Below are positions 21,607-48,588 of a DNA stretch of 64,000 nucleotides, piece by piece. The position numbers were made by a program, and so were the translations under genes. The DNA comes from Caldisericia bacterium (lineage in GTDB: Bacteria; Caldisericota; Caldisericia; B22-G15): positions 248,001-312,000 of the forward strand of contig JASEFN010000001.1 of NCBI GenBank assembly GCA_030018355.1. The letters run 5' to 3'. Within the stretch, counting starts at the first letter, position 1; each line of letters opens with the position of its first letter. The notes under the pieces were generated by a model, which was not told the origin of the DNA, did no database searches, and was given only the letters and a program-made list of their open reading frames with translations.

Positions 21607-22341
21607 ATGAAAAAGCAAGTCCCAACAAAATTAAGAAAGTCTGAGTACACATTTGATGCTGAGTGGCTTGAGGGAATGTTACAAGCACCATTAAATGCAC
21701 CCCCAATGAAACCATATTACACAGAGATTACAAATAAAGAGGGAAATAAATTTCAAGTTTTAATAAGACCCATTAAAGAGGAAGAAATTGACCCAGTTTT
21801 AAATTTCCTCAAATTAACACTTGATGCAGAGTATGATTTTTATGATATTGTAGGTGCAAGAGTTTTTGCAGAACTTCTTGCAATAAAAAGAAAGAGAATG
21901 AAAGATGAGTATTTCTTTGTAGGTCTTCATGACGGAAAACTTCTAGGAATTGCAAATGGAAGACTTATGAATGAAGATATAAATATTTCACTTCATACAA
22001 TGACATTTGAAAGACAAATTAATGCTGGAGCAGTTCTTTTTTATTCAAAAGCATGGTATACTTTTGAGGTTTGCCATCAGCAAGAATTTTGGGCAACATT
22101 CGAAAGTTACAATGGATGGGTTTTAGGTGGACTCAGAATGGCTCTTCCAACATATCCATGGCCAGACTATCAACATGAATTAGGTGGAGCAAAAATTTAT
22201 TATCTTACAAAAAAGATGTGGGAAGAAGAGATAAGAGATAACTATCTCCAACAAGTAATGAGAGGATTCTTTAAGGAAGCACCAGAAGAATTGATTAAAA
22301 GAAACGAAAAACTTATTGTTCCAGATAAACTTGAAATTTAA
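21607..22341 (+). CDS. Conserved hypothetical protein, possibly GNAT-like
   Basis: A 244-residue soluble protein I do not recognise with confidence. The segment from residue ~50 (VLIRPIKEEEIDPVLNFLKL) through FFVGLHDGKLLGIANGRL (~100-118) resembles the first half of an acetyltransferase (GNAT) fold, but the acetyl-CoA loop R/QxxGxG/A is not evident. The C-terminal half is rich in aromatic residues (tryptophan, tyrosine) and has one cysteine-histidine pair in EVCHQQ. It is a single-gene transcript with its own promoter and terminator. Sharing a palindrome with the divergent aminotransferase gene suggests common regulation and a related amino-compound role. Confidence 0.55.
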   Translation: MKKQVPTKLRKSEYTFDAEWLEGMLQAPLNAPPMKPYYTEITNKEGNKFQVLIRPIKEEEIDPVLNFLKLTLDAEYDFYDIVGARVFAELLAIKRKRMKDEYFFVGLHDGKLLGIANGRLMNEDINISLHTMTFERQINAGAVLFYSKAWYTFEVCHQQEFWATFESYNGWVLGGLRMALPTYPWPDYQHELGGAKIYYLTKKMWEEEIRDNYLQQVMRGFFKEAPEELIKRNEKLIVPDKLEI

Positions 22342-22353
22342 AAAAAGTAATTT

Positions 22354-22379
22354 AAAAGGGGGTAGTTCTACCCCCTTTT
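22354..22379. terminator. Bidirectional intrinsic terminator between convergent genes
   Basis: A 12-bp stem AAAAGGGGGTAG/CTACCCCCTTTT around TT. It is followed by ATTTTTTATTT on the plus strand and by TTAAATTACTTTTTTT on the minus strand, so it can end both the 21607 gene and the lipoate-ligase-like gene. The TAG stop codon of the minus-strand gene lies within the stem. Confidence 0.85.
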
Positions 22380-23399
22380 ATTTTTTATTTCGTTTATAAT
22401 CTCAATTAGTCCATTTTGCAACTCTGAATTTAAATTTAAACTTTTTATTATATTTATTGCCTCATCATAACTTCTCATATTTAAATTATTTTCTAACTCT
22501 TCAATTTTTTCTCTTTCAGCAATTAAAAAATCTCCATAAATTTTTATTTTCTCTATCTTTTCTTGGAAATTTCCTCTTAATATAATTAAGCCACTCCTAA
22601 TTTTTTTAGTATAAATCTCTTCAAATTCTTTTTCTTCTCCAAAAGTCCATTCCCAATTTTTATACTTTTTATTATAAAGTTCAAACATTAATTTTTTTTC
22701 TTTTTTTGTAATTTTTCCTTTAAATAAACTTACATTGAATTTTTCTTTAAAAGCATCTATAAAATTTTTATACGCTTCTTTTATTTTAACTTTTCTATTC
22801 AACTCAATTGAAATAGTTGTTAAAGCATCTTTTAAACTCTTAAAATTTTTATCAGAAAATTTAGGTTTAATAAATTTTAAAACTTTTGATAAAAACTCGA
22901 GATCCATATCAACAAGAATTGTACCAGTATAAGATATAGAATCTCCAATCTTTGTAAAAGAGGAGCCAAAAATTTTTTTATCATTCACTACTACATCATT
23001 TAATCCTCTCCTTTTTCCTTCAATTCCAAATTTTTTTAAAAATAATATAATTAAATTACTAAATTCATTATAAGTTTCTTCTTCACTCAATTTTGATAAG
23101 AAAGTACCGTTTCTATATAAACATGTAAACATAAAACTTCCTAAATCTTGATAAACTGTACCACCAAGATTATGCCTTCTAACTATCTTAACTCTATTTT
23201 TTAATGCAATATCTACATTTACAGTATCATATGGATTTTCTAAAAATCCAATAAGAACACTTCTTTTAACTCTTCTCAATCTAAGAGTATTTGGAAAAGA
23301 GTCATTTTCATCCATTAGTCTCATCATTGCTTCTTCTAAAGCATAATGTTTTGCTGGATCAAAAATTTTATCAATTATTAATCTAAAATTATCCCCCAT
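22368..23399 (-). CDS. Lipoate-protein ligase A / octanoyltransferase-like protein
   Basis: A BPL/LplA-family protein of about 343 residues from the ATG at 23399. A GTG 17 codons upstream (23450) is in frame, but it would overlap the preceding gene by 62 bases, so the ATG, which overlaps by 11, is preferred. The family core is visible: LRLRRVKRSVLIGF, then VRRHNLGGTVYQDLGSFMFT in place of the usual RRxSGGGxVxHDxG, and KKIFGSSFTKIG with the lipoyl-adenylate lysine. The Asn-Leu change in the glycine motif makes the exact activity uncertain (ligase or acyl transferase). A C-terminal domain of ~100 residues resembles the LplA accessory domain. The stop codon lies in the terminator stem. Confidence 0.78.
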   Translation of the reverse strand: MGDNFRLIIDKIFDPAKHYALEEAMMRLMDENDSFPNTLRLRRVKRSVLIGFLENPYDTVNVDIALKNRVKIVRRHNLGGTVYQDLGSFMFTCLYRNGTFLSKLSEEETYNEFSNLIILFLKKFGIEGKRRGLNDVVVNDKKIFGSSFTKIGDSISYTGTILVDMDLEFLSKVLKFIKPKFSDKNFKSLKDALTTISIELNRKVKIKEAYKNFIDAFKEKFNVSLFKGKITKKEKKLMFELYNKKYKNWEWTFGEEKEFEEIYTKKIRSGLIILRGNFQEKIEKIKIYGDFLIAEREKIEELENNLNMRSYDEAINIIKSLNLNSELQNGLIEIINEIKNKRG

Positions 23400-24081
23400 A
23401 AAATTCACATCTTTCTTTCTTACACTCTTTATTATCTTCACTAAATTCACATATAATTTCTTTAGGTAAACCTAAATCTCTATTAAACAACTCTTTAAAA
23501 TATTTTTCTAAAATTTTTAAACCAACATAAATTGATTCTTTACAACACCTTGGGCCACCTCTTTTTCCTAATTCTTCAAGACACTCTCCTGTTGCTCTCA
23601 AAATTATACTTCTTTCTTTATCACTTAAATATGTTGCTTTAAGTAAAGTTGATAGAGTAGCTCCAACACTTGAACAAACCCCACATGTTCCAATAGTTCC
23701 ACAAATTCCGTATGGCATAAATGAAGTCCTTTTTATCAATGCAACATTTCTTCGTGAATCCCATTTTAACATCCCTTTATTATTTAAAGAAGTTAAAACA
23801 ACTGGCCCTAGAACAAAATGGTGCTCTTTTCCAAAAAAATTAAATGATGGATGTCTTAATAAAAGGTTCAAATTTTTTAAAATATCTCCCTCTTTAGTAT
23901 AATTTAAAAATTTAATAGTTATATCTTCTTGGTTTAAAATTCTACAATCTTCACAAATATAGTGTCCATTTGGACAGATATACTCACTTTTTTCTTCTTT
24001 TCCACAATAAATACACTTATAAACTCCTTCTTTTTCTAAAAGTTCACTTTTACAGAGAGGACAATAAAACTTAACTTCCAT
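23389..24081 (-). CDS. Cysteine-rich DUF5714-like protein
   Basis: About 230 residues from the ATG at 24081; a second in-frame ATG at 24102 adds seven residues but increases overlap with the upstream gene. The N-terminus has two zinc-ribbon-like pairs (CPLC and CIYC, then CPNG and CEDC). The C-terminal part has YGICGTIGTCGVCSS and GGPRCCKESIY, a pattern I associate with DUF5714, whose function is unknown. The many cysteines suggest metal or Fe-S binding. It sits between a thioredoxin-fold gene and a lipoate-ligase-like gene, all overlapping, so the three may act together on a thiol cofactor. Function is not assigned. Confidence 0.6.
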   Translation of the reverse strand: MEVKFYCPLCKSELLEKEGVYKCIYCGKEEKSEYICPNGHYICEDCRILNQEDITIKFLNYTKEGDILKNLNLLLRHPSFNFFGKEHHFVLGPVVLTSLNNKGMLKWDSRRNVALIKRTSFMPYGICGTIGTCGVCSSVGATLSTLLKATYLSDKERSIILRATGECLEELGKRGGPRCCKESIYVGLKILEKYFKELFNRDLGLPKEIICEFSEDNKECKKERCEFYGG

Positions 24082-24394
24082 GTTTTTCAAAATATTCATC
24101 AATCATTTTTATGTGTTCACTAACAATGTCTCTAACTTTTTCATATGGAGGAGGATTAGTTGAGGCAACCCATATTCCATCAATAAAAATTGTAGGAATA
24201 CCAATTGATTTTAAACTTGCTCTAAATCCAGGAGATGAGTCTTCTGGTATAGGTTGACCTTTATAATATATTCTAATTAAAACTCTTTCAGGAAATTCTT
24301 CGCTAACTTCCTCAGCAATTCTTAACATCTCCTTACATTTAAAAGTTGGGGGAGATGCAAGATAAAGTTCAATAATTATTTTTGGTTTTTCCAT
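24071..24394 (-). CDS. Small thioredoxin-fold protein
   Basis: A 107-residue protein with the outline of a thioredoxin/glutaredoxin fold: a first beta strand, a helix after the segment SPPTFKCKEM, and the cis-proline loop GIPTIFIDG near residue 65. Only one cysteine (in TFKCKEM) is present, at the position of the usual redox motif, so a CxxC dithiol is missing. It heads a three-gene overlapping set with the DUF5714-like and lipoate-ligase-like genes. A role in thiol or metal delivery is possible but is inference. Confidence 0.6.
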   Translation of the reverse strand: MEKPKIIIELYLASPPTFKCKEMLRIAEEVSEEFPERVLIRIYYKGQPIPEDSSPGFRASLKSIGIPTIFIDGIWVASTNPPPYEKVRDIVSEHIKMIDEYFEKHGS

Positions 24395-24436: not shown

Positions 24437-26809
24437 TTATTTCATTATGTGCCAGTAATAATCTGGCTCCTTTTCACCCTTTGCTAAAGCAAGAGCAATT
24501 TTCTCTGCTGTAATTGGAAGTGCTTTTATTCTAACACCAACAGCGTCTTCAACTGCATTCGCAATCATAGGAGCAGCAGGGATCATTGGATGCTCTGCCA
24601 TACCTCTTGCACCAAATGGTCCGTCTGGTTGAGCAACCTCAACAATTATTGGTACAACTTCCTCAGGAATATCAAGAGATGTTGGAATCTTATAATCTGT
24701 AAAGTTTGGATTTAGTATCTTTCCATTTTTATCAAATCTCATATCCTCATAGAGTGCTGTTGCAAGTCCTTGTAATAAACCTCCTATAATTTGATCTTTG
24801 ACATTGAGAGGATTTATTGCTTTTCCACAATCTATTGCTTCCACAGCCTTAAGAATTTTAACCTTTCCTGTCTCTTTATCAACTTCAATTTTTACAGCAG
24901 CAGCACCAACTGTATAATGAACATTTGGATGTCCTCCTTGGCTTGTTTCTGGATCTTGTAATGCTGAACAAAAATCTACAAAGAATTGACCACTTGCAAC
25001 AATATTTTGTCCCACATAATATCCATCTTCTTTCATAATTCCATTAATAACAAAATCTTTTAGATCTAATTCAAAATCTGGTTTTAAGTAACATTTTACC
25101 TTACCATTTTCAAGATAAAGTGAGTCTTTATTAAAATGATATGCTCTTGATACTACTTCAAATATTTTGTCTCTTGCTTCAAGTGCTGCTCTTTTAACTG
25201 CATTACCACTAGCCCATGTAACATGTGATGCAACAGTTTGCCAGTGATATGGATTTCTATCTGTATCAGGAAGTTCTACTCTAATTTTTTCAATTGGAAT
25301 TGTTAAAATTTCTGCAGCAATTTGAGCCATTGCTGTATGATATCCTTGCCCAATTTCCATACCAGAAACAAGAATATTAACACTTCCGTCCCCGCTAAAC
25401 TTTAAAAATGCTGTTGTTGAAACGTTTGGAGGCATCGCAGGTGCCTTCCAGAAAATAGCAAATCCTTTTCCAATAGCCTTTTTAGGATCCTTAGACTCCT
25501 CTTTTTTACCCCATTCAATCTCTTCAGCAACCTTATCAATTGCCTCAATGAGTCCATTTGGATTCATTGGAGCGCCATAGGCAAGAGAATCTCCTTCTCT
25601 TATAGCATTCTTTCTTCTAAATTCAACTGGATCCATGCCAATTGCTTTTGCAATTCTTGTCATATGTGATTCAACTGAGAAAAGCATTTCAGAGTATCCA
25701 AAACCTCTATAAGGTCCTGCTGCAGGTAGATTTGTATAAATACAATAAGAATCTATTTTTACATTTGGAATTCTATATGGTCCTGTTGCAGAAAGACCTG
25801 AAGCATTAACAACATTAGCACCATATTCTACATATGGACCAGCATCCCAGAAATTCTCAATTTGAAAAGCAGTTATAGTTCCATCTTTTTTAACCCCAAC
25901 TTTTATTTTCGAAATTACCTGTTGTCTCATGTATGTGTTATAAAATTCTTGATCTCTCCTCCATCTAACTTTTACAGGATTTCCTTTGCAAGCAACTGCA
26001 AGAGCAGCAGCAATAACTTCCATTGTTACTCCTGCTTTACCACCAAATCCTCCTCCAACATATGGTGTTATTACTCTTACATCTTTTTCTGTAATACCAA
26101 GAGGTGATAATGCATCTGCAATAAGAGCCTTTTGCACATGAGGAGATTGTGAAGAATTCCACAGTGTAAGTCTTCCTGAAAGATCATAATATGCAACTGA
26201 AATATGAGTTTCCATACAACAATGAGCATATCTTGGAATTTTATATGTATCTTCGAAAACATAATCTGCTTCTTTAAAACCTTTCTCAACATCTCCTTTT
26301 CTTACTTTTCTATGATGTGCAATATTAGTTCCACCCTTAGGGAAAAACCATGGAACATGAGAATATTGACCAAGTTCTGGATGAATAATTGGTGCTCCTT
26401 CTTTAATAGCCTCAAGTGGATCAAATACTGCTGGAAGGGGTTCATATTCAACTTTAACCAACTTTGCAGCCTTTTGGGCTATTTTTGGATCTCTTGCAAC
26501 AACAGCAGCAACTTGCTCTCCAACAAATCTAACTCTATCTTGAGCAAAAATGTATCTATCTTTCATGTATAGACCAAATTTGAATGGAAAATCTTTTCCA
26601 GTAACTACCTTCACAACTCCTTCAACTTTTTCTGCTTCACTTGTATCAATCTTTTTTATTAGAGCATGTGGATAAGGTGATTCAACTATTTCTGCATAAA
26701 GTAGATTTGGTCCAAAATCAAGATCATCAACATATCTTGCTGCTCCCGTTATTTTTTCTTTCTCATCTATTCTTGGTATATCTTTTCCAACAAATTTTAA
26801 TTCTTCCAT
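24437..26809 (-). CDS. Xanthine-dehydrogenase-type molybdenum-binding subunit
   Basis: A 790-residue large subunit of the molybdenum hydroxylase (xanthine dehydrogenase/aldehyde oxidase) family. It binds the molybdopterin cofactor and hydroxylates an N-heterocycle or aldehyde. Motifs: GGGFGGKAG (~252-260), GPYRGFGYSE (~356), SGMEIGQGYHTAMAQIAAE (~478), and the C-terminal FGARGMAEHP in which the Glu is the catalytic base. A Gly to Ala change in the usual GxGE is noted. Hypoxanthine or xanthine is the likeliest substrate given the NCS2 permease and ureide genes nearby. It is the last gene in a set of three with the FeS and FAD subunit genes. RBS AGGAGG. Confidence 0.9.
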   Translation of the reverse strand: MEELKFVGKDIPRIDEKEKITGAARYVDDLDFGPNLLYAEIVESPYPHALIKKIDTSEAEKVEGVVKVVTGKDFPFKFGLYMKDRYIFAQDRVRFVGEQVAAVVARDPKIAQKAAKLVKVEYEPLPAVFDPLEAIKEGAPIIHPELGQYSHVPWFFPKGGTNIAHHRKVRKGDVEKGFKEADYVFEDTYKIPRYAHCCMETHISVAYYDLSGRLTLWNSSQSPHVQKALIADALSPLGITEKDVRVITPYVGGGFGGKAGVTMEVIAAALAVACKGNPVKVRWRRDQEFYNTYMRQQVISKIKVGVKKDGTITAFQIENFWDAGPYVEYGANVVNASGLSATGPYRIPNVKIDSYCIYTNLPAAGPYRGFGYSEMLFSVESHMTRIAKAIGMDPVEFRRKNAIREGDSLAYGAPMNPNGLIEAIDKVAEEIEWGKKEESKDPKKAIGKGFAIFWKAPAMPPNVSTTAFLKFSGDGSVNILVSGMEIGQGYHTAMAQIAAEILTIPIEKIRVELPDTDRNPYHWQTVASHVTWASGNAVKRAALEARDKIFEVVSRAYHFNKDSLYLENGKVKCYLKPDFELDLKDFVINGIMKEDGYYVGQNIVASGQFFVDFCSALQDPETSQGGHPNVHYTVGAAAVKIEVDKETGKVKILKAVEAIDCGKAINPLNVKDQIIGGLLQGLATALYEDMRFDKNGKILNPNFTDYKIPTSLDIPEEVVPIIVEVAQPDGPFGARGMAEHPMIPAAPMIANAVEDAVGVRIKALPITAEKIALALAKGEKEPDYYWHIMK

Positions 26810-26821
26810 CTTTAACCTCCT

Positions 26822-27280
26822 CTATTTATTTTTTACATAATCCATAACTGCTCTAATAATTGGAACATAACCTGTACATCTACATAAATTTCCTGAGATT
26901 GCCTCTTTAACTTCTTCTTCATCTGGCTTTGGATTTTTCTTTAAAAATTCTTCTAATGTTACAATCATCCCTGGAGCACAGAATCCACACTGAAATGAAT
27001 TGTGTTTTAAAAAGTATTTTTGAAGTTCTGTTAAACCACCCTTTGAAATTCCTTCAAGAGTTGTAATTTCTTGTCCATCAACCTCAACTGCTAAAATAAG
27101 ACAACTTCTAACAGATTTACCATTTAATAAAACTGTACATGTACCACAATCGCCTCTTCCACAACCATATTTAGGAGTTTTATCTCCGAGTTTATCTCTT
27201 AAAACATCCAATAATAAATCATTAGGTTCAACATAAACACTTCTCTTTTCTCCATTCAAAATAAAAGATATTTTTCTCAT
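26822..27280 (-). CDS. Xanthine-dehydrogenase-type 2Fe-2S subunit
   Basis: A 152-residue electron-transfer subunit with two [2Fe-2S] clusters. The plant-ferredoxin-type cluster is bound by CGRGDCGTC and a later Cys in VRSC; the second, helical cluster by CGFCAPGM and CRCTGY near the C-terminus. It passes electrons from the molybdenum site to the FAD subunit encoded just upstream. The spacing to both neighbours is 9-12 bases, each with a GGAGG site. Confidence 0.95.
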   Translation of the reverse strand: MRKISFILNGEKRSVYVEPNDLLLDVLRDKLGDKTPKYGCGRGDCGTCTVLLNGKSVRSCLILAVEVDGQEITTLEGISKGGLTELQKYFLKHNSFQCGFCAPGMIVTLEEFLKKNPKPDEEEVKEAISGNLCRCTGYVPIIRAVMDYVKNK

Positions 27281-27289
27281 CTTCTCCTC

Positions 27290-28186
27290 CTAAATTAATC
27301 TCTCTCCATACTTTGGACCTTTACCATTTAATCTATCAACTGCTGCCTTAAGTCCTCTTTCAAGCATAATCTTTGCCATATGAATTCTATATTCTTTTGT
27401 TGCTCTTATATCTGTTATTGGTGAAATTTCTTCAACAATTAACTTTTTTGCTTCTTCAATCAATGAGTCATTCAAATCTTTTCCATTTAAAAGTTGTTCA
27501 ACTTTTCTTGCTCTTGCAGCAACTGGACCCACAGCACAATGTGCAACTCTATATTCTTTTCCTTCAACAACAAGAATACCAATCCCAACTTGAGCAAGAT
27601 CTTCACCATTATATCTTCCTAACTTTACATACGCACTACCATTTTTTCTATTTATAAAAGGAATCAAAACACCATAAACAAATTCATCCTCTTTTAAAAC
27701 TGTCTTCCTTGGCCCTAAAAAGAATTCATTTATATTTACTTTTCTTTCTCCATTTCTGCTTTTTAAAATAACCTCTGCCTCATAGTCTAAAAGTGCAGGG
27801 CCAGAATCAAGAGAAGGTACTGCAGAACAAATATTACCAACAAGTGTTGCCCTATTTCTTATTGCAGTTGATGCTACACTCTTTGAGGCCTCCCATAAAA
27901 GTGGATAGCGCTCTCTTACAACTTCTGAATCGATTAATTCATTAAAAGTCACAGATGCACCAATAAAGAGTGAGTTTCCATTAAATTTTAACTCTTTGAG
28001 TTCGCCTATTCCTTTAATATCAATTAAAACTTCTGGAGATTCAAAACCATCTTTAATTCTCACAATTAAATCTGTTCCACCAGAAAGAATTTTTGCTTTT
28101 GTTTTATATTGAGTAAGAAAATCAACTAACTCATCTAAATTTTTAGGTTTTAAATATTCAAATTCATGTGAAATTACTCCTGACAT
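27290..28186 (-). CDS. Xanthine-dehydrogenase-type FAD-binding subunit
   Basis: A 298-residue member of the CO-dehydrogenase/xanthine-dehydrogenase FAD-binding family. The FAD pyrophosphate loop is ILSGGTDL (~34-41), and AIRNRATLVGNI (~111-122) is the second FAD motif. The C-terminal CODH_C domain covers ~180-285. It hands electrons to NAD+ or another acceptor. Its ATG lies just after a strong intrinsic terminator (28208-28240), so expression of the three-subunit enzyme must depend on read-through or an unseen promoter. Confidence 0.92.
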   Translation of the reverse strand: MSGVISHEFEYLKPKNLDELVDFLTQYKTKAKILSGGTDLIVRIKDGFESPEVLIDIKGIGELKELKFNGNSLFIGASVTFNELIDSEVVRERYPLLWEASKSVASTAIRNRATLVGNICSAVPSLDSGPALLDYEAEVILKSRNGERKVNINEFFLGPRKTVLKEDEFVYGVLIPFINRKNGSAYVKLGRYNGEDLAQVGIGILVVEGKEYRVAHCAVGPVAARARKVEQLLNGKDLNDSLIEEAKKLIVEEISPITDIRATKEYRIHMAKIMLERGLKAAVDRLNGKGPKYGERLI

Positions 28187-28207
28187 ATCTCCTCCTTAAA
28201 AATAAAA

Positions 28208-28240
28208 AAAGCGGAAGGATTTGTATAATCCTTCCGCTTT
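28208..28240 (-). terminator. Strong intrinsic terminator inside the gene cluster, before the xdh-type genes
   Basis: Perfect 13-bp stem AAAGCGGAAGGAT/ATCCTTCCGCTTT with a 7-base loop. On the minus strand it is followed by a run of seven Ts, then ATTTTT. It separates the double cyclase gene (stop 28251) from the FAD-subunit gene (start 28186) and lies about 22 bases before that start codon. Confidence 0.85.
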
Positions 28241-28250
28241 ACTTTTTAAA

Positions 28251-29888
28251 TTATTTCATCTTCCAAGCAATAAACCTACCCCACATTGATTCTGCTTCCA
28301 TTGCTTTTGCAAGAAAACAGCCAAGATAATATCTACCACTTGGGAGGTGAGCAATATCACCTGCAAGATTTTCTGCATGAACAAGATGTTTTGGAAATAG
28401 TTTAAGGTGCATCACTTGATAAAATTCATCAATTGGGTACATTTCATCCCAATCTTTACCAAATTGTTCTTTGAGTTTTCTATTTGCTTCTTCAAAAGTT
28501 TTTGGATGCCATATTCTCATAATGGTGTTCATAGGATGATCTGCACTTACTGCATCAACTCCAATCCATTTAATTTTCATATCTAATGCCCATTGAGCAA
28601 AATCTGGTGATGGTCCAGGGTGTCTTACCATATATTTAAATTCGTCAGAATCTGGTGAATTCCATCCATATTTATGCCAACCAGTTTTAATTATTAAAAT
28701 ATCGCCTGGCCTTATATCAACGACCTTCTTTATCATTTCTGGTGTATAAACACTGACATCACTTACCATATCTGAAATATCTGCAATTACACCTGGTCCA
28801 ACCCATTCTTCAAGCGGTGTTTCACCAATTGTTCTTCCAGCTGGATAGAAATGTTTTTCTCCATCCATATGTGTTGCAAGGTGAATACTTGCATTGCAAA
28901 TTGATGTATTTCTTCCTAAACCAAATTGTTGTTGTCCAACTCTCTTAAAGAACCTAACACTTAGTGGTTCATAATTTAACCATTGTGGTGTTCTAACAGA
29001 AAATGGAATTGTAAGATCATATTGTTCCATCTCTTCCATCATTTTAATGAATTCTTCATTATCCATTCCTTCTGGTGCTTGATATGCAACAACTCTTGCC
29101 CATGATGCCTCTGTTTCCATAAATGGAATTACACCTGCAAATATCCATGCTCTTTGATTAAGAAGTTTATCTACATCACCACCAATGCTTTCAACAAAAA
29201 CAAGATGTGATTTTGGAACTTTAATGTGCATTAATTTATAATATTCATCTGGTGGAAACATCTCATCCCACTCTTTACCCCATTCTTTTCTTAACTTTGC
29301 TTTTGCTTTTTCAAATTCACCTGCATGCCAATATCTTATTGGGGTATTCATAGGGTGTTCTATACAACCAGCATCAATTCCAACCCATTTAAGCTTCATC
29401 TTCATTGCCCATTCGAAAAATTCCATATTTGGTCCTGGATGTCTTACAAGATATCCAAATTCAGAAGATGTTGGTTTTTCCCATGAATATTTGCTATAAC
29501 CAGTGTAAATAATAAGAATATCTCCTTCTTTTACATTTACTTTTTTCGTGATCATTTCTGGAGTAATTATGCTATAATCTGATACCATATCTGAAATATC
29601 AACAATCACTCCTGGACCCGAAAGTTCTTTAAGTGGAATATCTGAAATTGCTCTACCACCTGAATGATATGCTGTTTCGCCAACAAGATGAGTACCAGTT
29701 GTGTTACTCCAGTTTAAAATTTGACCATTTGCACCCTGTCCTCCACCATAAGCACCTGTTACTCTTTTAAAGAAATGAACTTCAAGTGCTTTATCATGGG
29801 GCCACGGTGGAGTAAAAATACTTAAAGGTTGAGTTAGATCATAAAGTTTTGCTTTACTTAAAGTTTCAATAAATTTTTCATTATTCAT
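28251..29888 (-). CDS. Tandem cyclase-family (PF04199-type) hydrolase fusion
   Basis: A 545-residue protein made of two homologous cyclase/kynurenine-formamidase-like domains (~1-280 and ~285-545). The family's metal-binding motif is HxGTHxDxxxH. In the C-terminal domain it is kept as IHLATHMDGEKHF (Gly to Ala only). In the N-terminal domain it reads NTTGTHLVGETAYH, with the first His, the Asp and the last His replaced, so that half is probably catalytically dead. Both halves keep HPMNT and the KHLVHAEN/SHLVFVES-type segment. Family members hydrolyse amide or ring bonds with zinc or manganese. The substrate is unknown; a cyclic ureide or acyl-amide is plausible from context. The single-domain paralogue is at 31187-31999. 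Confidence 0.85.
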   Translation of the reverse strand: MNNEKFIETLSKAKLYDLTQPLSIFTPPWPHDKALEVHFFKRVTGAYGGGQGANGQILNWSNTTGTHLVGETAYHSGGRAISDIPLKELSGPGVIVDISDMVSDYSIITPEMITKKVNVKEGDILIIYTGYSKYSWEKPTSSEFGYLVRHPGPNMEFFEWAMKMKLKWVGIDAGCIEHPMNTPIRYWHAGEFEKAKAKLRKEWGKEWDEMFPPDEYYKLMHIKVPKSHLVFVESIGGDVDKLLNQRAWIFAGVIPFMETEASWARVVAYQAPEGMDNEEFIKMMEEMEQYDLTIPFSVRTPQWLNYEPLSVRFFKRVGQQQFGLGRNTSICNASIHLATHMDGEKHFYPAGRTIGETPLEEWVGPGVIADISDMVSDVSVYTPEMIKKVVDIRPGDILIIKTGWHKYGWNSPDSDEFKYMVRHPGPSPDFAQWALDMKIKWIGVDAVSADHPMNTIMRIWHPKTFEEANRKLKEQFGKDWDEMYPIDEFYQVMHLKLFPKHLVHAENLAGDIAHLPSGRYYLGCFLAKAMEAESMWGRFIAWKMK

Positions 29889-29916
29889 ATAAAACCTCCT
29901 TTTATTTTAATAATTT

Positions 29917-31161
29917 TTAACCAGCATATTTTTTAGCAAATGCAATGAGAGCCTTCTTGAAACACTCCATTGGAGCATCAAGAAGTCCTGCACCAACTTG
30001 ACCAACTCCAGGATCTTTATGAGCAACACCAGTATCAATAAATGGGGTTAAATTTTTCTCAACAACTTTTCTTATATCAATTCCAGTTGGAGTACCTCTG
30101 AAATCAAAATATGGAATAAGATATGAATTATTTTCACCTATTGTTATTTCATACATCTCAAGGTTTTTCTTAATAGCAAGTTGAGTTGTTCCACCAACAA
30201 ATTTAATTATTGCTGGTGCTGCAGCAATTGCTAAACCTCCAAGACCTATTGTCTCCATAATAGCACTATCACCCATATCACGACCAACATCTTCTTTCTT
30301 AAATCCAGGGAAAAGAAGAACATCTGGAATAGGTGATTCAGTTATAAACCATTCATTCCCCATTCCTGAAACTCTTATTCCCCAATCAGTTCCATTTCTT
30401 GTCATAACTGTTACCATTGTGCTTCCTTCAATCCCTTCACATGGCTCAATGCTTGCTTTACAACTTGCCATAATAAAAGGAAGGTAAGCGTGAATATTTT
30501 GCTGAATAAATGTTATTGAATCATTTGTATTTTTCAAGTCTTCCATAGTCGCAAGAAGATATGGAACAAGTTTCGAAAATAGAAGATATGAAGCAGCCCT
30601 TGTTCTATTATGAAGTTCATCACCCATTGTTAATGCTTCTGCGTTTATAGGTTTTAATTCAATCTTTCCTGCTTTTCTTATTGCTTTTTGTAAAACTGGG
30701 AAAAACACATTCTCCATCCACTTAAGTCTTGCTATTACATCTTCTGAATATGCACCCATTCTTAAAACTTTTCCTATACCTTCGCTTAAGTTACAGAAAG
30801 CCTTATTACCAAATGCTTCATTTTCTACAACAATAACTGGCATTGACGGAGTAATTATTCCAGCCATTGGTGCAACTGCACTATGATGATGATTAGGCTC
30901 AAATATAATTTCTCCTGATGCTGCTAATTTTTCTGCTTCTTCTGGAGTTTTTGCCCATCCTTCATAAAGGATACCACCGATAACAGCTCCCCTTTGAGCT
31001 CCACACATTCTATCCCATGTTATTGGAGGACCTGCATGAAGAAACATGTTTTTCTTCATCCCAGGTATTACATCAATTGCTCTCTGAACATCAACCCATA
31101 CAGGTTGAGCATCAAGAAGTCTCTTAAGAGCCTCTTGATTTGCCTTTTCAATGTCTACCAT
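29917..31161 (-). CDS. allG: DUF1116 protein, AllG/YlbE-like subunit of oxamate carbamoyltransferase
   Basis: A 414-residue protein that follows E. coli YlbE (AllG) along its length: LHAGPPITWDRMCGAQRGA (~42), EPNHHHSAVAPMAGI (~89), NLSEGIGKVLRMGAY (~122), GDSAIMETIGLGG (~296) and GVAHKDPGVGQVGAG (~379). In E. coli AllF, AllG and AllH together form the enzyme that transfers carbamoyl between oxalurate and phosphate, giving oxamate and carbamoyl phosphate. All three relatives are in this operon. The symbol is given by homology; the real substrate may differ because no allantoin-pathway enzymes are seen. RBS AGGAGG. Confidence 0.82.
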   Translation of the reverse strand: MVDIEKANQEALKRLLDAQPVWVDVQRAIDVIPGMKKNMFLHAGPPITWDRMCGAQRGAVIGGILYEGWAKTPEEAEKLAASGEIIFEPNHHHSAVAPMAGIITPSMPVIVVENEAFGNKAFCNLSEGIGKVLRMGAYSEDVIARLKWMENVFFPVLQKAIRKAGKIELKPINAEALTMGDELHNRTRAASYLLFSKLVPYLLATMEDLKNTNDSITFIQQNIHAYLPFIMASCKASIEPCEGIEGSTMVTVMTRNGTDWGIRVSGMGNEWFITESPIPDVLLFPGFKKEDVGRDMGDSAIMETIGLGGLAIAAAPAIIKFVGGTTQLAIKKNLEMYEITIGENNSYLIPYFDFRGTPTGIDIRKVVEKNLTPFIDTGVAHKDPGVGQVGAGLLDAPMECFKKALIAFAKKYAG

Positions 31162-31186
31162 TTTAACCTCCTTTTAATTTTTGTTT

Positions 31187-31999
31187 TTATGGTTCAATTG
31201 CAATAATTCTACATTGAGAGGATTCAAATTCCATCCCTTTCAATGGAAAGCACCCAATCCAAACTCTTTTATTTTTAACTTTATCTATATCACCACCAAG
31301 GTTTTCTGCATGAACTAAACCTTTTGGGAAAAGTTTGAGATGCATAATTTGATAATATACTTCAGGTGGAAACATTTCATCCCAACTTTTTCCATATTTT
31401 TCCTTTAGTTTTTTTTCTGCCTCTTGAAACGCTTTTGGGTGCCACTGTCTTATTATTGTATTCATGGGATGATCTGCGCTTCCGCAATCAACACCAATCC
31501 ATTTAAATTTCATTTTAAGAGCCCACTCATCAAATCCAGGACCTGGCCCAGGATGTTTAACAAAATATCTTACTTCATCTGCTTCAGGTTCATACCATGC
31601 ATATTTATGATATCCAGTGTTTATAATCAAAATATCACCTGGTCTAATTTCAACTTTTTTCTCAAGCATTTCTGGAAAATACAAATCATAATCACCAACT
31701 TCATCAGATATATCAACAACAACTCCAGGACCTATCCACTCTTCAATTGGAACTTCTCCTATTGATCTTCCATGTCCATAAAAATGTATTTCACCATCCA
31801 TATGAGTTCCGACATGATGACTCATAGTAATTATTTGACCATTTGCACCTTGTCCCATATGTGCACCTGCGATTCTTTTAAAATATTGAATAGAAAGGGG
31901 AACATAACTTGGCCATGGAGGTGTATGAACACTTAAAGGTTGAGTCAAATCATACACTTTTACCTTGCTCATTAAATCTAAAAATTCATTTATATTCAT
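31187..31999 (-). CDS. Cyclase-family metal-dependent hydrolase
   Basis: A 270-residue single-domain member of the cyclase/kynurenine-formamidase family. The metal motif is complete: MSHHVGTHMDGEIHF (about residues 60-75). The ADHPMNT block near 175 and the C-terminal GLVHAENLGGD are also kept. It is clearly related to both halves of the 545-residue fusion encoded two genes downstream, so the operon carries three copies of the domain. It probably hydrolyses an amide or lactam in the pathway of this operon. RBS GGAGG before the ATG. Confidence 0.88.
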   Translation of the reverse strand: MNINEFLDLMSKVKVYDLTQPLSVHTPPWPSYVPLSIQYFKRIAGAHMGQGANGQIITMSHHVGTHMDGEIHFYGHGRSIGEVPIEEWIGPGVVVDISDEVGDYDLYFPEMLEKKVEIRPGDILIINTGYHKYAWYEPEADEVRYFVKHPGPGPGFDEWALKMKFKWIGVDCGSADHPMNTIIRQWHPKAFQEAEKKLKEKYGKSWDEMFPPEVYYQIMHLKLFPKGLVHAENLGGDIDKVKNKRVWIGCFPLKGMEFESSQCRIIAIEP

Positions 32000-32010
32000 C
32001 TTTTACCTCC

Positions 32011-32190
32011 TTATTTTCCTAAATTCATGAGTTTCTTTAGTGCCTCTAGTGCTTCTTCATCACCACCTGCTGGTGGTTTCCAGTCCACTTGAATCACTTT
32101 AAAACCCGTTTGTTCTAAACTCTCTTTAAACGAAACTAACCCAACATTTATAACTTTTAATTCTTTTTTAAATAAATCACTAACCGCCAT
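32011..32190 (-). CDS. 59-residue protein equivalent to the C-terminal tail of FdrA/AllF
   Basis: A short open frame of 59 codons with its own GGAGG site, starting two bases after the fdrA-like stop codon and ending 11 bases before the next gene. The segment LKVINVGLVSFKESL, then FKVIQVDWKPPAGGDEE and a terminal helix, matches the last ~50 residues of E. coli FdrA (AVINIGLRSFALEL ... VVHYQWSPVAGGNKK), which the 517-residue neighbour lacks. Here the tail is therefore a separate polypeptide. It presumably associates with the AllF-like and AllG-like subunits. Easily missed by annotation because of its length. Confidence 0.8.
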   Translation of the reverse strand: MAVSDLFKKELKVINVGLVSFKESLEQTGFKVIQVDWKPPAGGDEEALEALKKLMNLGK

Positions 32191-32192
32191 AA

Positions 32193-33746
32193 TTAACCTC
32201 CTATTTTCTTTAATACATAACCTGCAAATTTTGTTGCAGATGCATTTGATTCAAATACAATGGCACCTACATCTTTTAATCCTTGAATTAAATCCTTTTT
32301 ATTTTGTGGATCTTTATCAGTTGCACAAACAGTTATAACAAAAAGTGCATTTGAGTTTTTCATCGCTTCTTTTAATGCGGGAACAAGATCTTCTTTTGGT
32401 TTTGGATTTGTACCATAACCAACCACTACATCAAGGTAAAATATCGCGACATCAGGTAGTTTACTTTCTTCAATTAATCTTTTGTTTCTTAAACTAAAAT
32501 CAATTTGAGGATGTGGTCTACCAACAGTAAATTCATCCTCTCCAAAATCAATGACAGTATGGCCCTCGCTCTTCCAAGAATCTTTTAATTTGTATTTCTC
32601 ATCAAGAGGAACATTTGAATTGACAAACCCAATAAAATCTTTAAGAATAACCTGAGTCTCGTAGGTGAGGGTACCTCCTTGGAAGAAACCTCTAAAATAT
32701 TTCTGAGTTGGTTTTAATTTTTTAGATAACTCTTCTGCAAGTTTTTTGATCTCTTCTTCTTTTTCTTGTAATTCTTTTTTAAATTTATCCATTGGTATAC
32801 CCTTAGATATGCTAACTGCAAGAAGCGCTCCCTCTTCTAATGTTGGGGCAGGAATTGCCCCAATTGATTTAACTAATTCTGGATCTGCACCTAATAAAAT
32901 TCCAACTATTGGTTTTTTAATTGTTTTTGTTAAACTTCCAATCTTTTCTAAAATTTCTGGATGTGGTGGTTTTGAAATTAAAACAATAACTTTTGTCTCT
33001 GGATCATCTTTTAATGCTTCAATACCTTTCATAAATGAGAGTGCACCATACTCTTTTTTAACATCAATTCCTCCAGTTCCAATTCCTTGAGAAATTCCGC
33101 CTCCATTATTAGAAATTATTGTGCTAACCTCTTGAAGGCCTGTTCCTGCTGCAGAAACAATCCCAATATCTCCTCTATTTACAACATTTGCAAAACCCAA
33201 TGGAGCGCCATTTATAATTGCAGTTCCACAATCTGGACCCATAACAAGAAGGTCATGTTCATAACCATATTTTTTTACTTCAATTGCTTTTTCTTTTGGG
33301 ACATTATCTGAAAATATCATCACATGAAGTCCTCTTTTAAGAGCATCCATAGCTACATCACCTGCATACCTTCCTGCCACTGAGATCAAACATAGATTTG
33401 CATCTGGCATAATTTGAAGAGCACCTTCAATACTTTTTGGTAGAAATTCAGTAGTTGCTGAGATTCTCTCCTTACTTTTCTTAAGCATCTCAACAATTTT
33501 ATTTACACTCTCCTCAGCCACTCTCTCGTCTTCACTTTTCACTGCAATAATTAAATCTGTATCTTTTGCATTTACAAACTCTGGAAGAAGCATTTGAGAG
33601 TCTTGAAGTATAGATTTATTTTCTTTTGTTCCCATAACAACAGCTGCTTCAATAACTCCAGGAAGTGATGAGGCATCCTTTGAAACAAGCATAAGAGTTA
33701 CTGAATCATAATATTCACCACTTTTAATTAAACCTTTTACATACAT
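32193..33746 (-). CDS. allF: FdrA/AllF-like acyl-CoA-synthetase-fold subunit
   Basis: A 517-residue relative of E. coli FdrA (555 residues), now named AllF, a succinyl-CoA-synthetase-fold subunit of oxamate carbamoyltransferase. Shared blocks: GLIKSGEYYDSVTLMLVS at the start, MPDANLCLISVAGRYAG (~113), LLVMGPDCGTAIINGAPLGFANV (~166), GIVSAAGTGLQEV (~194), FFQGGTLTYE (~354), FTVGRPHPQIDFSLRN (~407). It stops before the conserved VINVGL...PAGG tail, which is encoded by the next small gene. Overlaps the allH-like gene by 23 bases. Together with that gene and DUF1116 it probably makes carbamoyl phosphate from a ureide. Confidence 0.85.
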   Translation of the reverse strand: MYVKGLIKSGEYYDSVTLMLVSKDASSLPGVIEAAVVMGTKENKSILQDSQMLLPEFVNAKDTDLIIAVKSEDERVAEESVNKIVEMLKKSKERISATTEFLPKSIEGALQIMPDANLCLISVAGRYAGDVAMDALKRGLHVMIFSDNVPKEKAIEVKKYGYEHDLLVMGPDCGTAIINGAPLGFANVVNRGDIGIVSAAGTGLQEVSTIISNNGGGISQGIGTGGIDVKKEYGALSFMKGIEALKDDPETKVIVLISKPPHPEILEKIGSLTKTIKKPIVGILLGADPELVKSIGAIPAPTLEEGALLAVSISKGIPMDKFKKELQEKEEEIKKLAEELSKKLKPTQKYFRGFFQGGTLTYETQVILKDFIGFVNSNVPLDEKYKLKDSWKSEGHTVIDFGEDEFTVGRPHPQIDFSLRNKRLIEESKLPDVAIFYLDVVVGYGTNPKPKEDLVPALKEAMKNSNALFVITVCATDKDPQNKKDLIQGLKDVGAIVFESNASATKFAGYVLKKIGG

Positions 33747-34593
33747 CTTCTCCTCCTTTTTTAAGCGTTAAAATTAAACCTACACTAAAATCTACTCCAG
33801 ATGTTTCACCAATCTGGAGTATATCTCTAGTACGCTCTAAAATCTCTCTCTCATCTTCAAAAAAGAGTGAATAAATCAATTTTTTTGTTTTTTCAAAAAA
33901 CATTCCCCTACTTGCTAAAAAAAGAAAATTATTTGAAATTAAATTTTCTCCTTTGGCGCTCTCATATATTAAATTTTTAAGATAATCCAAATTTTTATTA
34001 TATAGAATCTCTATTATGTTTACTCCAGTAATGAATCCATAAATAAAATCATCACCGCTTGGTGTCAAACCAACTCCTACACCTTTTATTTCATTTATTC
34101 CATCAATTAAATCACCATTAAAAATTTTTTCACTTCCACTTTTAATTTTAAGTATAAATTTATAAAATAAAGAGTTATCATCTGAAAAGTTATTAGTTAA
34201 TAAAGGAGAAAGTCCTTTTCCATTAGAAATTAATATAAGATAAGTCTCAAACAAATTTAAATTATAATAAAACTTTTTATAATCAAATTTTTCAACTTTG
34301 AGTCGCGAATTATAAATTTTATCTTCTTGAAGTGTAAATTCTAAATCACAAATAAAAAGTTTTTTATTTTCTTTTATAATAGATTTACATCTTTTAAATA
34401 GAGAGATATCGTTAAAAATTATATTTGTTGGACCATTTCCAATACTCTTGTTTCCAATTGTTAAAATTTTATCATTATTATAAAAATTAATTGAATTCTT
34501 AAAAGTAGAATGCAAAAAATATTCTCCATCAAAAATATAATCTCCAAAACCAACAATTATTAATTGTCTCTCTTTTCCTTCAATTACTTTCAA
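33724..34593 (-). CDS. allH: DUF2877 protein, AllH/YlbF-like subunit
   Basis: A 289-residue protein with the DUF2877 signature GVGVGLTPSGDDFIYGFITG (~171-190) and DVDFSVG-like C-terminal stretch (SGVDFSVGLI, ~264). E. coli YlbF (AllH, 271 residues) is the third component of oxamate carbamoyltransferase with AllF and AllG. The initiation codon is TTG at 34593, seen after AAGAGGTTATC; no better ATG is near. It lies between the HutP-like gene and the fdrA-like gene and overlaps the latter. Confidence 0.78.
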   Translation of the reverse strand: MKVIEGKERQLIIVGFGDYIFDGEYFLHSTFKNSINFYNNDKILTIGNKSIGNGPTNIIFNDISLFKRCKSIIKENKKLFICDLEFTLQEDKIYNSRLKVEKFDYKKFYYNLNLFETYLILISNGKGLSPLLTNNFSDDNSLFYKFILKIKSGSEKIFNGDLIDGINEIKGVGVGLTPSGDDFIYGFITGVNIIEILYNKNLDYLKNLIYESAKGENLISNNFLFLASRGMFFEKTKKLIYSLFFEDEREILERTRDILQIGETSGVDFSVGLILTLKKGGEDVCKRFN

Positions 34594-34608
34594 GATAACC
34601 TCTTATTA

Positions 34609-35058
34609 TTATTTAATGTGCATTATTCCTAATGCACTTTTTTCATGATTTGTAATAGGATAAAATGCAGAATCACCAAAAATACCAACACAAATCCATT
34701 TTCCATCAGAAACAACAGAAACTTTTAATGAAAGAGAGGAATCAAGTGATTCGCTATGAATTATTGCATTTAATGCTTCAAGAGATGCATGAAGTAAAGC
34801 ATGAACTTCGGGTGTTGTTTTATTTATTACATTACAATTTAGTGCTGCACCTAAAACTGCTGGTGCAAATTTTCTTCTAATTTCTGAAGCAAAACCTGCG
34901 ACCCTTGTTACTCCTACCTTATAATTTGTAGACTCAAGAATTTTTTTCTTTATTTCATTTTCTTCTTCATCTGATGACATTGAAAGAAGAAGCGCAACCT
35001 TACCAATTCTATCTATGTCCATTTTAAACTCAATTTCTTTTCTCTCTTTTTTCTCCAT
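34609..35058 (-). CDS. HutP-family RNA-binding antiterminator
   Basis: A 149-residue protein matching HutP, the histidine- and metal-activated antitermination protein of the Bacillus hut operon (148 residues). The metal and ligand residues are kept: His86 and His90 in VHALLHASLEAL and His138 in NHEKSALGIMHI correspond to His73, His77 and His138 of B. subtilis HutP, and Glu94 corresponds to Glu81. Here it heads the ureide/purine-type operon rather than a histidine operon, with its own consensus promoter and only ~15 bases of leader. Its target RNA is not obvious. The effector may be histidine or another compound. RBS AAGGAG. Confidence 0.82.
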   Translation of the reverse strand: MEKKERKEIEFKMDIDRIGKVALLLSMSSDEEENEIKKKILESTNYKVGVTRVAGFASEIRRKFAPAVLGAALNCNVINKTTPEVHALLHASLEALNAIIHSESLDSSLSLKVSVVSDGKWICVGIFGDSAFYPITNHEKSALGIMHIK

Positions 35059-35079
35059 ACTATACTCCTTAATAAATTA

Positions 35080-35108
35080 ATTATAATTATTAATCGTTTA
35101 AATGTCAA
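35080..35108 (-). promoter_or_regulatory. Consensus promoter of the hutP-like gene and following operon
   Basis: Minus strand: TTGACA at 35108-35103, spacer exactly 17, TATAAT at 35085-35080; both hexamers match the housekeeping sigma consensus completely. Start expected near 35073, giving a short leader with AAGGAG before ATG 35058. Confidence 0.85.
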
Positions 35109-35112
35109 CAAT

Positions 35113-35604
35113 TTAATACAAATTTTCTTCACTTAAAATTTCTCTTCTGATGCTAAAAAATTTATCTAAAATAAGGTTTTCTTTTATTCCTTTTACCCAA
35201 ATTTCTGGATATGGAATGGAAAAAGCTGCTCTATCTATTTCTCCATTTTCATTTTCAAAATAGAAGGCAAGGCATTCTTTTTCAAGAATTTCACCCTTGT
35301 GATGATCTGTAATTGCTATTGAAAAAATTTTCCCTTTTGGAATAAAAACTTCTCTTTTATCAAAACTTCCAACATAATAAAGTCCATTTTTAAGTAAAAT
35401 CATGAAGCCTTCTGAATTTAATATTTTCCCTTTTTCTGACTCTTTCCCAAAATATTTAACACCAAAAGTTTTAAGAAGAATATCTTTTTCATTAAATTTT
35501 GAAATAATTTTTCTGTAATCTTTTTGTTTTAACCAGTTGTAAAAAACAAGTCCAAATAAAAAAATACCGGCAATTAAATAATAATAGAAATTAAGATACT
35601 TCAT
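35113..35604 (-). CDS. Hypothetical membrane-anchored protein
   Basis: A 163-residue protein with one N-terminal membrane segment (residues ~5-23) followed by a soluble, beta-rich domain. The pattern (FMILLKNGLYYVGSFDKREVFIPKGKIFSIAI) faintly resembles bacterial PH-like domains, but this is not a firm match. It overlaps the upstream 136-residue membrane protein gene by 14 bases, so the two are a coupled pair lying between the permease gene and the hutP-like gene. Function unknown. Confidence 0.6.
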   Translation of the reverse strand: MKYLNFYYYLIAGIFLFGLVFYNWLKQKDYRKIISKFNEKDILLKTFGVKYFGKESEKGKILNSEGFMILLKNGLYYVGSFDKREVFIPKGKIFSIAITDHHKGEILEKECLAFYFENENGEIDRAAFSIPYPEIWVKGIKENLILDKFFSIRREILSEENLY

Positions 35605-36001
35605 CTTTTTCTAATTTAATTTTATCAAGTTTTGATAAAAGATAAATTAATTTTCTATATGCATAATTGTATCTATAACCCTTTTTTATATTTAATGCCT
35701 TTAAAATATCTTTTGCAATATTCTCATCACTCCATCCTTTATCTTTAAGTTTCTTTATTTTTTTTATATTTAATCTAATAATTTCTTCAAATCCTTTTGT
35801 TTCAATTAACATTGAATAATAAAAACTCATAAAAAGAACTGTTGCACCACTTAACAAAGCAGCAATAATATCAATCCATATATTGTCAGTAAATTTTCTA
35901 AAAGGTGATTTATCTGTTCCTGCAGTAAATATTAAAAATACAGTTAGAATTGTGAAAAAAATCATAAAAAAGGTAAAAATTCCTTGACTTCTCTTATCCA
36001 A
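35591..36001 (-). CDS. Hypothetical protein with two membrane segments
   Basis: A 136-residue protein with hydrophobic helices at about 8-28 and 43-63 and a charged cytosolic C-terminal half rich in lysine (IKKIKKLKDKGWSDENIAKDILKAL), which could be a short helical binding domain. The initiation codon is TTG at 36001, five bases after AGGAGGGAGAT; no in-frame ATG fits better. The gene follows the permease terminator directly. Function unknown. Confidence 0.6.
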   Translation of the reverse strand: MDKRSQGIFTFFMIFFTILTVFLIFTAGTDKSPFRKFTDNIWIDIIAALLSGATVLFMSFYYSMLIETKGFEEIIRLNIKKIKKLKDKGWSDENIAKDILKALNIKKGYRYNYAYRKLIYLLSKLDKIKLEKDEVS

Positions 36002-36066: not shown

Positions 36067-37614
36067 TTATTGTTGTGATGCTTCGAATCCAGCAAGTTTT
36101 CTTTCTTCACCCTCTTTCATCTTTGCCCATTCAGCTTCTGCTTTCTGCCATGCTTCTTCTGTTGCTTCTCTCTCCCAATATCCAAATCCTCTCTCTTCTC
36201 TTGTTGCACCAGGAAGCAGGTTATCAAGTAAAATACCAATTATTGCAGAAACAGCCATTGGTGTTGAAAGAATTGTGAAGACAATTAAACCTAAAACTAC
36301 TCCAAAAGATGCACCTTGTTCTGCTAATTTCTTTGAAAAACTATCTCTAATTGGAGAGAAGGCTGCTGGGAATGAAAGACCACCAAATAGTGATAATCCT
36401 AAAATAAAGAGGTTTCTTGAGTTATTAAGATTAACATATTGAAGGTTATTTAATCCAACTGCTGCAATTAAACCAAATAGTCCAACATACATTGCACCAA
36501 CAACTGGTTGTGGAAGTGAAGCAAAGACTGCAAATAGTTTACCAATAAGTGGTAATATAAGCATTATTATTGCTCCTGCTCTAATAACTCTACGAGCAGC
36601 AACTCTTGTTAATCCTATTGCTCCAATGTTTTCAGAGTAAGATGTAGAACTATTTCCTGACTGAAGTATACCTGCTATTAAGCATCCAACTCCTTCTGCA
36701 CCAAGACCACGAGAAATCATTCTTTCAGTTGGAGGTGGTGCCTCTGAAATTTTTGCACAAGAGTGATAATCTCCAATTGATTCAACCATTGATGCAAGAT
36801 ATGCAGCAAGCATTCCAAATGAACCTGCAACTAAAATACCTGTATTTGATGGGAAACCCCATCTAAATGGAATATATGGTTTAATTGTGAACCAAGGTGC
36901 TTCTGCAATATTTTTGAATGCTTGAGTTAAGTTTGCAGCATTACCTTCTGGAATTAATCCTGTCAATGTTCCAATAACTGCTGCTATCCAACCAGTTGCA
37001 ATTGCTGATATAACTGGAAAGAGAAGGAAGAATCTACTCTTTCTTGAGAAAACTTGAGAATAAACAATTAACGCAATAAGTGTAATTAATGAAATTGTCC
37101 AGTTAGTTGCCATATATGGAGCACCTACTGAGTAAAGAGCAAGTCCTATCATTGTAATTGTTGGACCAATTGAGAGAGGACCAATAAGTCTTTTAACTTT
37201 ACCCATAATTCCTGAATAACCAAGAATAATTTCAAAGAAAGAAGCAAACATAATTGCGCCAGCAACATGCTGAATACACATTTTCCAGTCTCCACCTTGT
37301 GCTTGAACCATTCCAATAATTGCAAATGTTGGACCTAAAAATGAGAATGAACCTCCTTGGACAATTGGTAATTTATTACCAATTAGTTGCTGACACCATG
37401 TTGTGATTCCTGAATTTAAAAATACTGCTGCAATAAGAATTGCAAGTTGATCTGGTGGAAATCCCATTGCATTTCCTACAAGAAGAGGAATTGAAATTGT
37501 TGCGCCAAACATTGTTAAGAAATGCTGGAAACCCAAGAAAAATGCAAGACCCCATCTTGGCTTACTGCCAATTGGGTAAATAACCCAACCTACTTGTTGT
37601 GTACCATTTGACAT
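36067..37614 (-). CDS. NCS2-family xanthine/uracil-type permease
   Basis: A 515-residue integral membrane protein with about 12-14 membrane helices, of the NCS2 (nucleobase-cation symporter 2) family. The family blocks are visible: FFLGFQHFLTMFGATISIPLLV at the N-terminus, QGGSFSFLGPTFAI (~84), and the signature SGNSSTSYSENIGAIGLTRVAARRVI (~318). It probably imports xanthine, hypoxanthine or uracil with protons. Placement upstream of the ureide and molybdenum hydroxylase genes on the same strand supports a purine-type substrate. It has its own promoter and terminator. Confidence 0.9.
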   Translation of the reverse strand: MSNGTQQVGWVIYPIGSKPRWGLAFFLGFQHFLTMFGATISIPLLVGNAMGFPPDQLAILIAAVFLNSGITTWCQQLIGNKLPIVQGGSFSFLGPTFAIIGMVQAQGGDWKMCIQHVAGAIMFASFFEIILGYSGIMGKVKRLIGPLSIGPTITMIGLALYSVGAPYMATNWTISLITLIALIVYSQVFSRKSRFFLLFPVISAIATGWIAAVIGTLTGLIPEGNAANLTQAFKNIAEAPWFTIKPYIPFRWGFPSNTGILVAGSFGMLAAYLASMVESIGDYHSCAKISEAPPPTERMISRGLGAEGVGCLIAGILQSGNSSTSYSENIGAIGLTRVAARRVIRAGAIIMLILPLIGKLFAVFASLPQPVVGAMYVGLFGLIAAVGLNNLQYVNLNNSRNLFILGLSLFGGLSFPAAFSPIRDSFSKKLAEQGASFGVVLGLIVFTILSTPMAVSAIIGILLDNLLPGATREERGFGYWEREATEEAWQKAEAEWAKMKEGEERKLAGFEASQQ

Positions 37615-48512: not shown

Positions 48513-48588
48513 AAAATATCCTCCTTTTATCAATTTTATAAATTAATTCTTTATATAAAAATCCAAACAAAATTTCATCTACTTCAAA

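Follow-up and report, generated by a model that had tools for sequence, protein, structure and literature searches.

A 64,000-nucleotide stretch of the genome (1.41 Mb) of a Caldisericota bacterium (Caldisericia; assembly GCA_030018355.1, contig JASEFN010000001.1, positions 248,001 to 312,000), hereafter called the window, carries a minus-strand operon that joins a HutP-family regulator, an AllFGH-type carbamoyltransferase, cyclase-family hydrolases, and a three-subunit molybdenum (Mo) hydroxylase. The operon is real and widely conserved in bacteria, not a chance assembly, and we propose, with a probability of about 0.58, that it serves to degrade pyrimidine bases (uracil and perhaps thymine) oxidatively and with conservation of energy. 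Its genes follow each other with tight spacing in the order hutP, allH, allF, a 59-amino-acid tail open reading frame (ORF), cyclase, allG, double cyclase, xdhB, xdhC, and xdhA; the gene names, order, single strand, and close packing listed by the first-pass annotation, which was made from the sequence alone, were confirmed by ORFs and by Pfam and NCBIfam matches (Table 1).

A search of genome contigs with the window cyclase yielded 556 confirmed relatives; the counts at loci given here cover the best 80 of these and describe the closest relatives of the window cyclase, not cyclases in general. The cyclase is accompanied by Mo hydroxylase genes at 74 of the 80 loci and by All genes at 66, and 447 of 450 labeled genes share its strand. 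The grouping had been put forward on the understanding that it should recur in other genomes, and the association is in fact very strong. The core (AllHFG, cyclase, and Mo hydroxylase) recurs across about a dozen lineages of phylum rank, mostly metagenome-assembled; the 80 cyclases themselves carry more than a dozen phylum-level names and derive nearly all from metagenome-assembled genomes. AllG is present in 24 of 54 Caldisericota genomes, and the arrangement AllH-AllF-AllG-cyclase-XdhB-XdhC-XdhA-NCS2 occurs in several genera of Caldisericota. Of the 80 loci, 12 have an NCS2 carrier, and such carriers also occur in several Caldisericota.

In the proposed pathway, the NCS2 carrier would take up the base, as judged from its residues, and the Mo hydroxylase would oxidize uracil to barbiturate. 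A metal-dependent cyclase-family hydrolase, replacing the AtzD-type barbiturase, would then open barbiturate to ureidomalonate, the CH2-homologue of oxalurate. AllFGH of Escherichia coli converts oxalurate to carbamoyl phosphate and oxamate (PMC11326118); by analogy, the window enzyme, the family membership of which is clear, may cleave ureidomalonate with phosphate to malonamate and carbamoyl phosphate. Carbamoyl phosphate would yield ATP through the predicted activity of a carbamate kinase, the gene for which lies at another site in the genome, and malonamate would be converted to malonate; in related clusters, the half-amide would be met by an amidase together with a CoA-transferase or by an omega-amidase-like enzyme. 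A pyrimidine rather than a purine ring is favored because of the uracil-type Glu in the carriers and because related clusters contain half-amide hydrolases and genes of the malonate type.

To compare the carriers, 19 cluster-linked NCS2 proteins (that of the window and 18 others, from three NCS2 lineages) were aligned with UraA, RutG, XanQ, UacT, and YbbY of E. coli. All 19 have Glu at the position of UraA E290, as does RutG, whereas XanQ and UacT have Gln; we take this residue of the ENxG motif, also in view of the yardsticks in the alignment, to separate uracil from purine carriers. The carrier of a Cloacimonadota cluster (L123) matches UraA at 1e-73, versus 2e-17 for a urate-xanthine permease. 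These residues bear on a purine or another fused azaheterocycle as substrate, with a xanthine dehydrogenase (XDH), a cyclase opening a purine-derived ring, and AllFGH cleaving a purine-derived ureide. XDH subunits do appear among the top-scoring NCBIfam models for the Mo hydroxylase, the window NCS2 carrier has its highest score against pbuX, a xanthine-permease model, ahead of the uracil model, and the Glu/Arg/Glu residues of XDH, which we presume to map onto the active site of the bovine enzyme, are kept in 77 to 78 of 79 Mo subunits. However, the scores stay far under the XdhABC equivalog cut-offs (559.6 versus 780 bits for the Mo subunit, with the other subunits also below theirs), the ENxG motif is of the uracil type in every carrier aligned, and AllD is above its cut-off (TIGR03175) in none of 45 cluster genomes, with a positive E. 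coli control; we therefore consider a purine substrate unlikely. Of the purine- or ureide-degrading route suggested by the first-pass annotation, the end in carbamoyl phosphate, and hence in ATP, is retained, and the purine part is given up in view of the uracil-type Glu of the carriers. Its remarks that allantoin genes are missing and that the substrate need not be that of E. coli hold.

Ring opening is assigned to the cyclases, as had been anticipated. The single cyclase is predicted to be a ring-opening, barbiturase-like enzyme, and the best fold match of the cyclase structure model is isatin hydrolase, which opens a cyclic amide. Isatin hydrolase and kynurenine formamidase (PF04199) share the fold and the metal-binding motif with the window enzymes, but the identity in structural alignment is only 17 to 19%, and the double form with one dead site is a feature of the present operon. 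The metal motif is intact in all 121 single cyclases examined. In the N-terminal half of the window double cyclase, three of the four metal-motif residues are lost, and all seven double cyclases examined combine one motif-less half with one intact half; the operon thus has three cyclase domains but likely two active sites.

All three AllFGH subunit homologues are encoded together, with the tail ORF and the cyclase placed between AllF and AllG, and AllF exceeds the cut-off of NCBIfam model PRK06091 (454 versus 433 bits). Similar to the allFGHK oxamate branch of E. coli (PMC11326118), the window has AllF and AllG of 35 to 44% identity near full length, an AllH recognized by Pfam, and a carbamate kinase in the genome. 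It differs in that the kinase is encoded outside the operon, Mo hydroxylase and cyclase genes accompany the carbamoyltransferase, the AllF C-terminal segment is an ORF of its own, and no AllD is above cut-off. The tail ORF is a mobile segment of the complex and not a new gene, since both the genome's second AllG and a Cloacimonadota AllG carry the same segment as an N-terminal fusion. That second AllG, which branches within the Caldisericota AllG clade (support, 0.95), belongs to an AllF-AllG pair (contig C4, 62900-82800, L053) with no AllH recognized alongside; the pair adjoins genes for a BiuH-like isochorismatase hydrolase, an NCS1 permease, and a BMP/ABC nucleoside-type transporter.

The carbamate kinase gene, absent from the window, lies on contig C2 of the same genome, so the earlier statement that none is visible is true of the window only. 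It encodes a divergent protein of 361 amino acids and is flanked by two OTCase-family carbamoyltransferase genes and a gene for a pyridoxal phosphate enzyme (L090:8068-12732), a cluster that suggests a further carbamoyl-phosphate-yielding route. Carbamate kinase matches were obtained in 42 of 45 cluster genomes. Because the gene is common also in Caldisericota that lack AllG, it is necessary for the proposed pathway but not diagnostic of it.

The fate of the half-amide was approached through genes that adjoin the core in related clusters. Module A consists of an amidase, present in Cloacimonadota and Bacteroidales clusters, and a family III CoA-transferase, which co-occur at 14 loci; the best solved relative of the amidase is malonamidase E2 (7e-47). 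Elusimicrobia loci have, next to the cluster, a nitrilase-superfamily enzyme (module C) with PRK10438, which we take to be the YafV omega-amidase model, as its best NCBIfam match (147 bits versus a cut-off of 249). Judged from sequence, half-amides of dicarboxylic acids, for example malonamate or oxamate, would fit both modules. Oxamate would arise if a parabanate- or hydantoin-type ring were opened to oxalurate, from which AllFGH would form oxamate and carbamoyl phosphate, and the amidase and CoA-transferase would lead on to oxalyl-CoA. This route would use AllFGH on its known substrate oxalurate (PMC11326118), and the Cloacimonadota clusters have a CoA-transferase that is nearest to the oxalate type, YfdE. 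Nevertheless, we regard it as very unlikely: no oxalyl-CoA decarboxylase above cut-off was found in 27 cluster genomes, 14 of which have the CoA-transferase, and an oxalate branch was rejected on this ground; the carriers are of the uracil type; and the CoA-transferase homologue of the window's own genome is encoded beside malonate transporter subunits and most resembles a succinate--hydroxymethylglutarate CoA-transferase.

This homologue, 52% identical to the CoA-transferase of module A, lies behind a second hutP gene about 42 kb from the first (L003:3074-11990) and is followed by genes for MadL, MadM, GatC, GatA, a biotin-dependent Na+ decarboxylase, and BioY. The GatA-like amidase was considered as a malonamidase and rejected; it scores 626 bits against a GatA cut-off of 481, stands beside GatC, and is probably a tRNA enzyme. 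Malonate genes as a phylum-wide partner of the operon were likewise dismissed: MadL was detected in just one of 54 Caldisericota genomes, the window's own, which makes the malonate link local, and the own-type CoA-transferase occurs in two genomes. A third set of genes, module B, pairs a GNAT-fold protein with a thiolase-like protein at 13 loci; a Zn-ribbon/OB protein is often present as well. The GNAT-fold protein and the CoA-transferase of module A never occur at the same locus, and in related Caldisericota the GNAT-fold gene occupies the slot before allH. A role of this protein as malonyl-CoA decarboxylase was not retained; the fold is supported, but the top 50 structures listed are acetyltransferases or unassigned GNAT proteins.

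Several of these observations weigh against pyrimidine degradation as the function of the operon. We infer every substrate in the scheme, from observed gene content, conservation, and motif states. The cyclase structure model is of low confidence (mean predicted local distance difference test score, 70). To the pbuX score of the window carrier is added that SLC23A1 is its nearest relative in sequence, which leaves the ENxG motif as the main argument for this carrier. Malonamidase E2 is barely ahead of GatA (9e-45) as a match of the module A amidase, and the YfdE likeness of the Cloacimonadota CoA-transferase points to oxalate. The carbamate kinase is frequent beyond the genomes with AllG, module B is not explained by the proposed pathway and stays outside it, MadL is confined to the window's own genome and the own-type CoA-transferase to two genomes of its genus, and the half-amide hydrolysis step has no assigned gene in this genome.

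With pyrimidine degradation still the preferred reading, the scheme can be set beside described pathways. In the oxidative pyrimidine pathway, the pyrimidine is converted to barbiturate, from which barbiturase and ureidomalonase form malonic acid and urea (PMC3758960). The proposed intermediates barbiturate, ureidomalonate, and malonate are the same, whereas a cyclase-fold enzyme is proposed here for the ring opening and phosphorolysis to carbamoyl phosphate would replace hydrolysis to urea. No AtzD/Bar-family barbiturase was found in 45 genomes, a weak negative, since the control genomes gave no match either. Oxidative, reductive, Rut, and URC routes of pyrimidine degradation are listed in the introductory section of a study of urate breakdown published in 2025 (PMC12507026). 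The reductive route for urate, with YgeW and YqeA among its proteins (PMC12507026), likewise cleaves a ureido group with phosphate to give carbamoyl phosphate and ATP, but the carbamoyltransferase is of an unrelated family and none of the genes of that pathway occurs in the operon. No description of the operon was found in the open-access literature, as represented mostly by titles and the openings of abstracts; with subscription journals largely missing, priority is not established. Combinations of barbiturase with cyclase or ureidomalonate, and of isatin hydrolase with barbiturate, gave nothing in the open-access literature, and malonamate, barbiturate, carbamoyl phosphate, and uracil together gave only trypanosomatid and cancer work among the titles and abstract openings. 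We consider the chances to be about even that the operon represents a widespread, undescribed pyrimidine fermentation, with a cyclase-fold barbiturase, AllFGH-type phosphate cleavage of ureidomalonate leading to ATP, and half-amide modules that are exchangeable across phyla.

The regulator at the head of the operon belongs to the HutP family, although it does not reach the NCBIfam HutP equivalog cut-off (45 versus 155 bits). Of 54 Caldisericota genomes, 4 have HutP, each from the same family as the window, and the best 80 related loci lack it. The first-pass observation of a HutP-type regulator on such genes is thus real, but it is restricted to one family, and HutP is a lineage-specific addition to the operon. 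Compared with HutP of Bacillus subtilis, the window protein is of the same family (above the Pfam cut-off) and has the metal-ligand His positions; it differs in the missed equivalog cut-off, in heading a nucleobase-type operon, and in having a promoter without a leader terminator. The leader between promoter and hutP is only about 20 to 25 nucleotides long and the hutP-allH gap is 15 bp, with no leader terminator ahead of or behind this first hutP; a Bacillus-type attenuator is unlikely here because the leader is too short. In three genomes (G003, G002, and G001), TTGACA and, after it, an AT-rich -10-like box precede hutP.

A histidine-responsive antiterminator that ties the operon to histidine breakdown would be compatible with any reading of the pathway. 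Its family membership and conserved metal-ligand His residues would accord with such a role, as would hutU (urocanate hydratase) in the window and a terminator-like hairpin within the operon, at the junction of double cyclase (cyc2) and xdhB. At the second hutP locus, a promoter and a leader terminator separate hutP from the CoA-transferase gene, an arrangement that would suit antitermination. Yet the short leader ahead of the first hutP leaves no room for an attenuator, HutP is missing from the related loci, and the hairpin, the position of which is kept in relatives while its sequence differs between genera, is placed identically where no HutP was found and was rejected as a HutP target; we judge such histidine-responsive antitermination of this operon to be distinctly improbable.

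A terminator-like site behind the NCS2 gene (positions 36050-36022) indicates that this gene is probably a transcription unit separate from the hutP operon. Immediately downstream of the operon, on the same strand, are thioredoxin-like, DUF5714, and lipoate-protein-ligase-like genes (22368-24394). Elsewhere in the window, D-ornithine aminomutase OraE (817-3009) and hutU (17058-18713) point to amino-acid fermentation, and three consecutive, very large, repetitive secreted-type proteins are encoded at 41892-60417.

Table 1. Coordinates of the hutP operon and of nearby features in the window
Feature	Position	Strand	Evidence or remark
Two small overlapping genes, no assigned function	35591-36001 + 35113-35604 (span 35113..36001)	-	Conserved beside NCS2 in relatives
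NCS2 nucleobase permease	36067..37614	-	PF00860, 246 bits; uracil-type ENxG motif
Sigma-70-type promoter of hutP operon	35080..35108	-	TTGACA-N17-TATAAT, 12/12 consensus matches
HutP-family regulator, first operon gene	34609..35058	-	PF09021, 110 bits; three metal-ligand His positions conserved
AllH-like carbamoyltransferase subunit	33724..34593	-	PF11392, 76.8 bits; TTG start listed
AllF/FdrA-like subunit	32193..33746	-	35% identity to E. coli AllF
Free-standing AllF C-terminal segment (59 amino acids)	32011..32190	-	Matches E. coli AllF residues 509-554 (C terminus)
Single cyclase-family hydrolase	31187..31999	-	PF04199, 117 bits; HxGTHxDxxxH metal motif intact
AllG-like subunit (DUF1116/PF06545)	29917..31161	-	292 bits; 44% identity to E. 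coli AllG
Double cyclase	28251..29888	-	PF04199, 209 bits over two stretches; C-terminal domain intact
Terminator-like hairpin, cyc2/xdhB junction	28208..28240	-	
Mo hydroxylase flavin adenine dinucleotide subunit (XdhB-like)	27290..28186	-	Pfam, NCBIfam
Mo hydroxylase [2Fe-2S] subunit (XdhC-like)	26822..27280	-	Pfam, NCBIfam
Mo hydroxylase molybdopterin subunit (XdhA-like)	24437..26809	-	XDH-type active-site Glu200, Arg295, Glu739
GNAT-fold protein	21607..22341	+	No Pfam or NCBIfam match; many phyla have homologues within or next to the cluster

If the proposed pathway is correct, it would provide a function for a conserved operon of about a dozen mostly uncultured lineages and would add to pyrimidine degradation a route that gains ATP, together with a second, unrelated family of barbiturases. 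The AllFGH carbamoyltransferase would then not be restricted to allantoin breakdown, and concrete substrates could be given to DUF1116 (AllG), AllH, FdrA-like, and cyclase proteins, which are now vaguely or misleadingly annotated.

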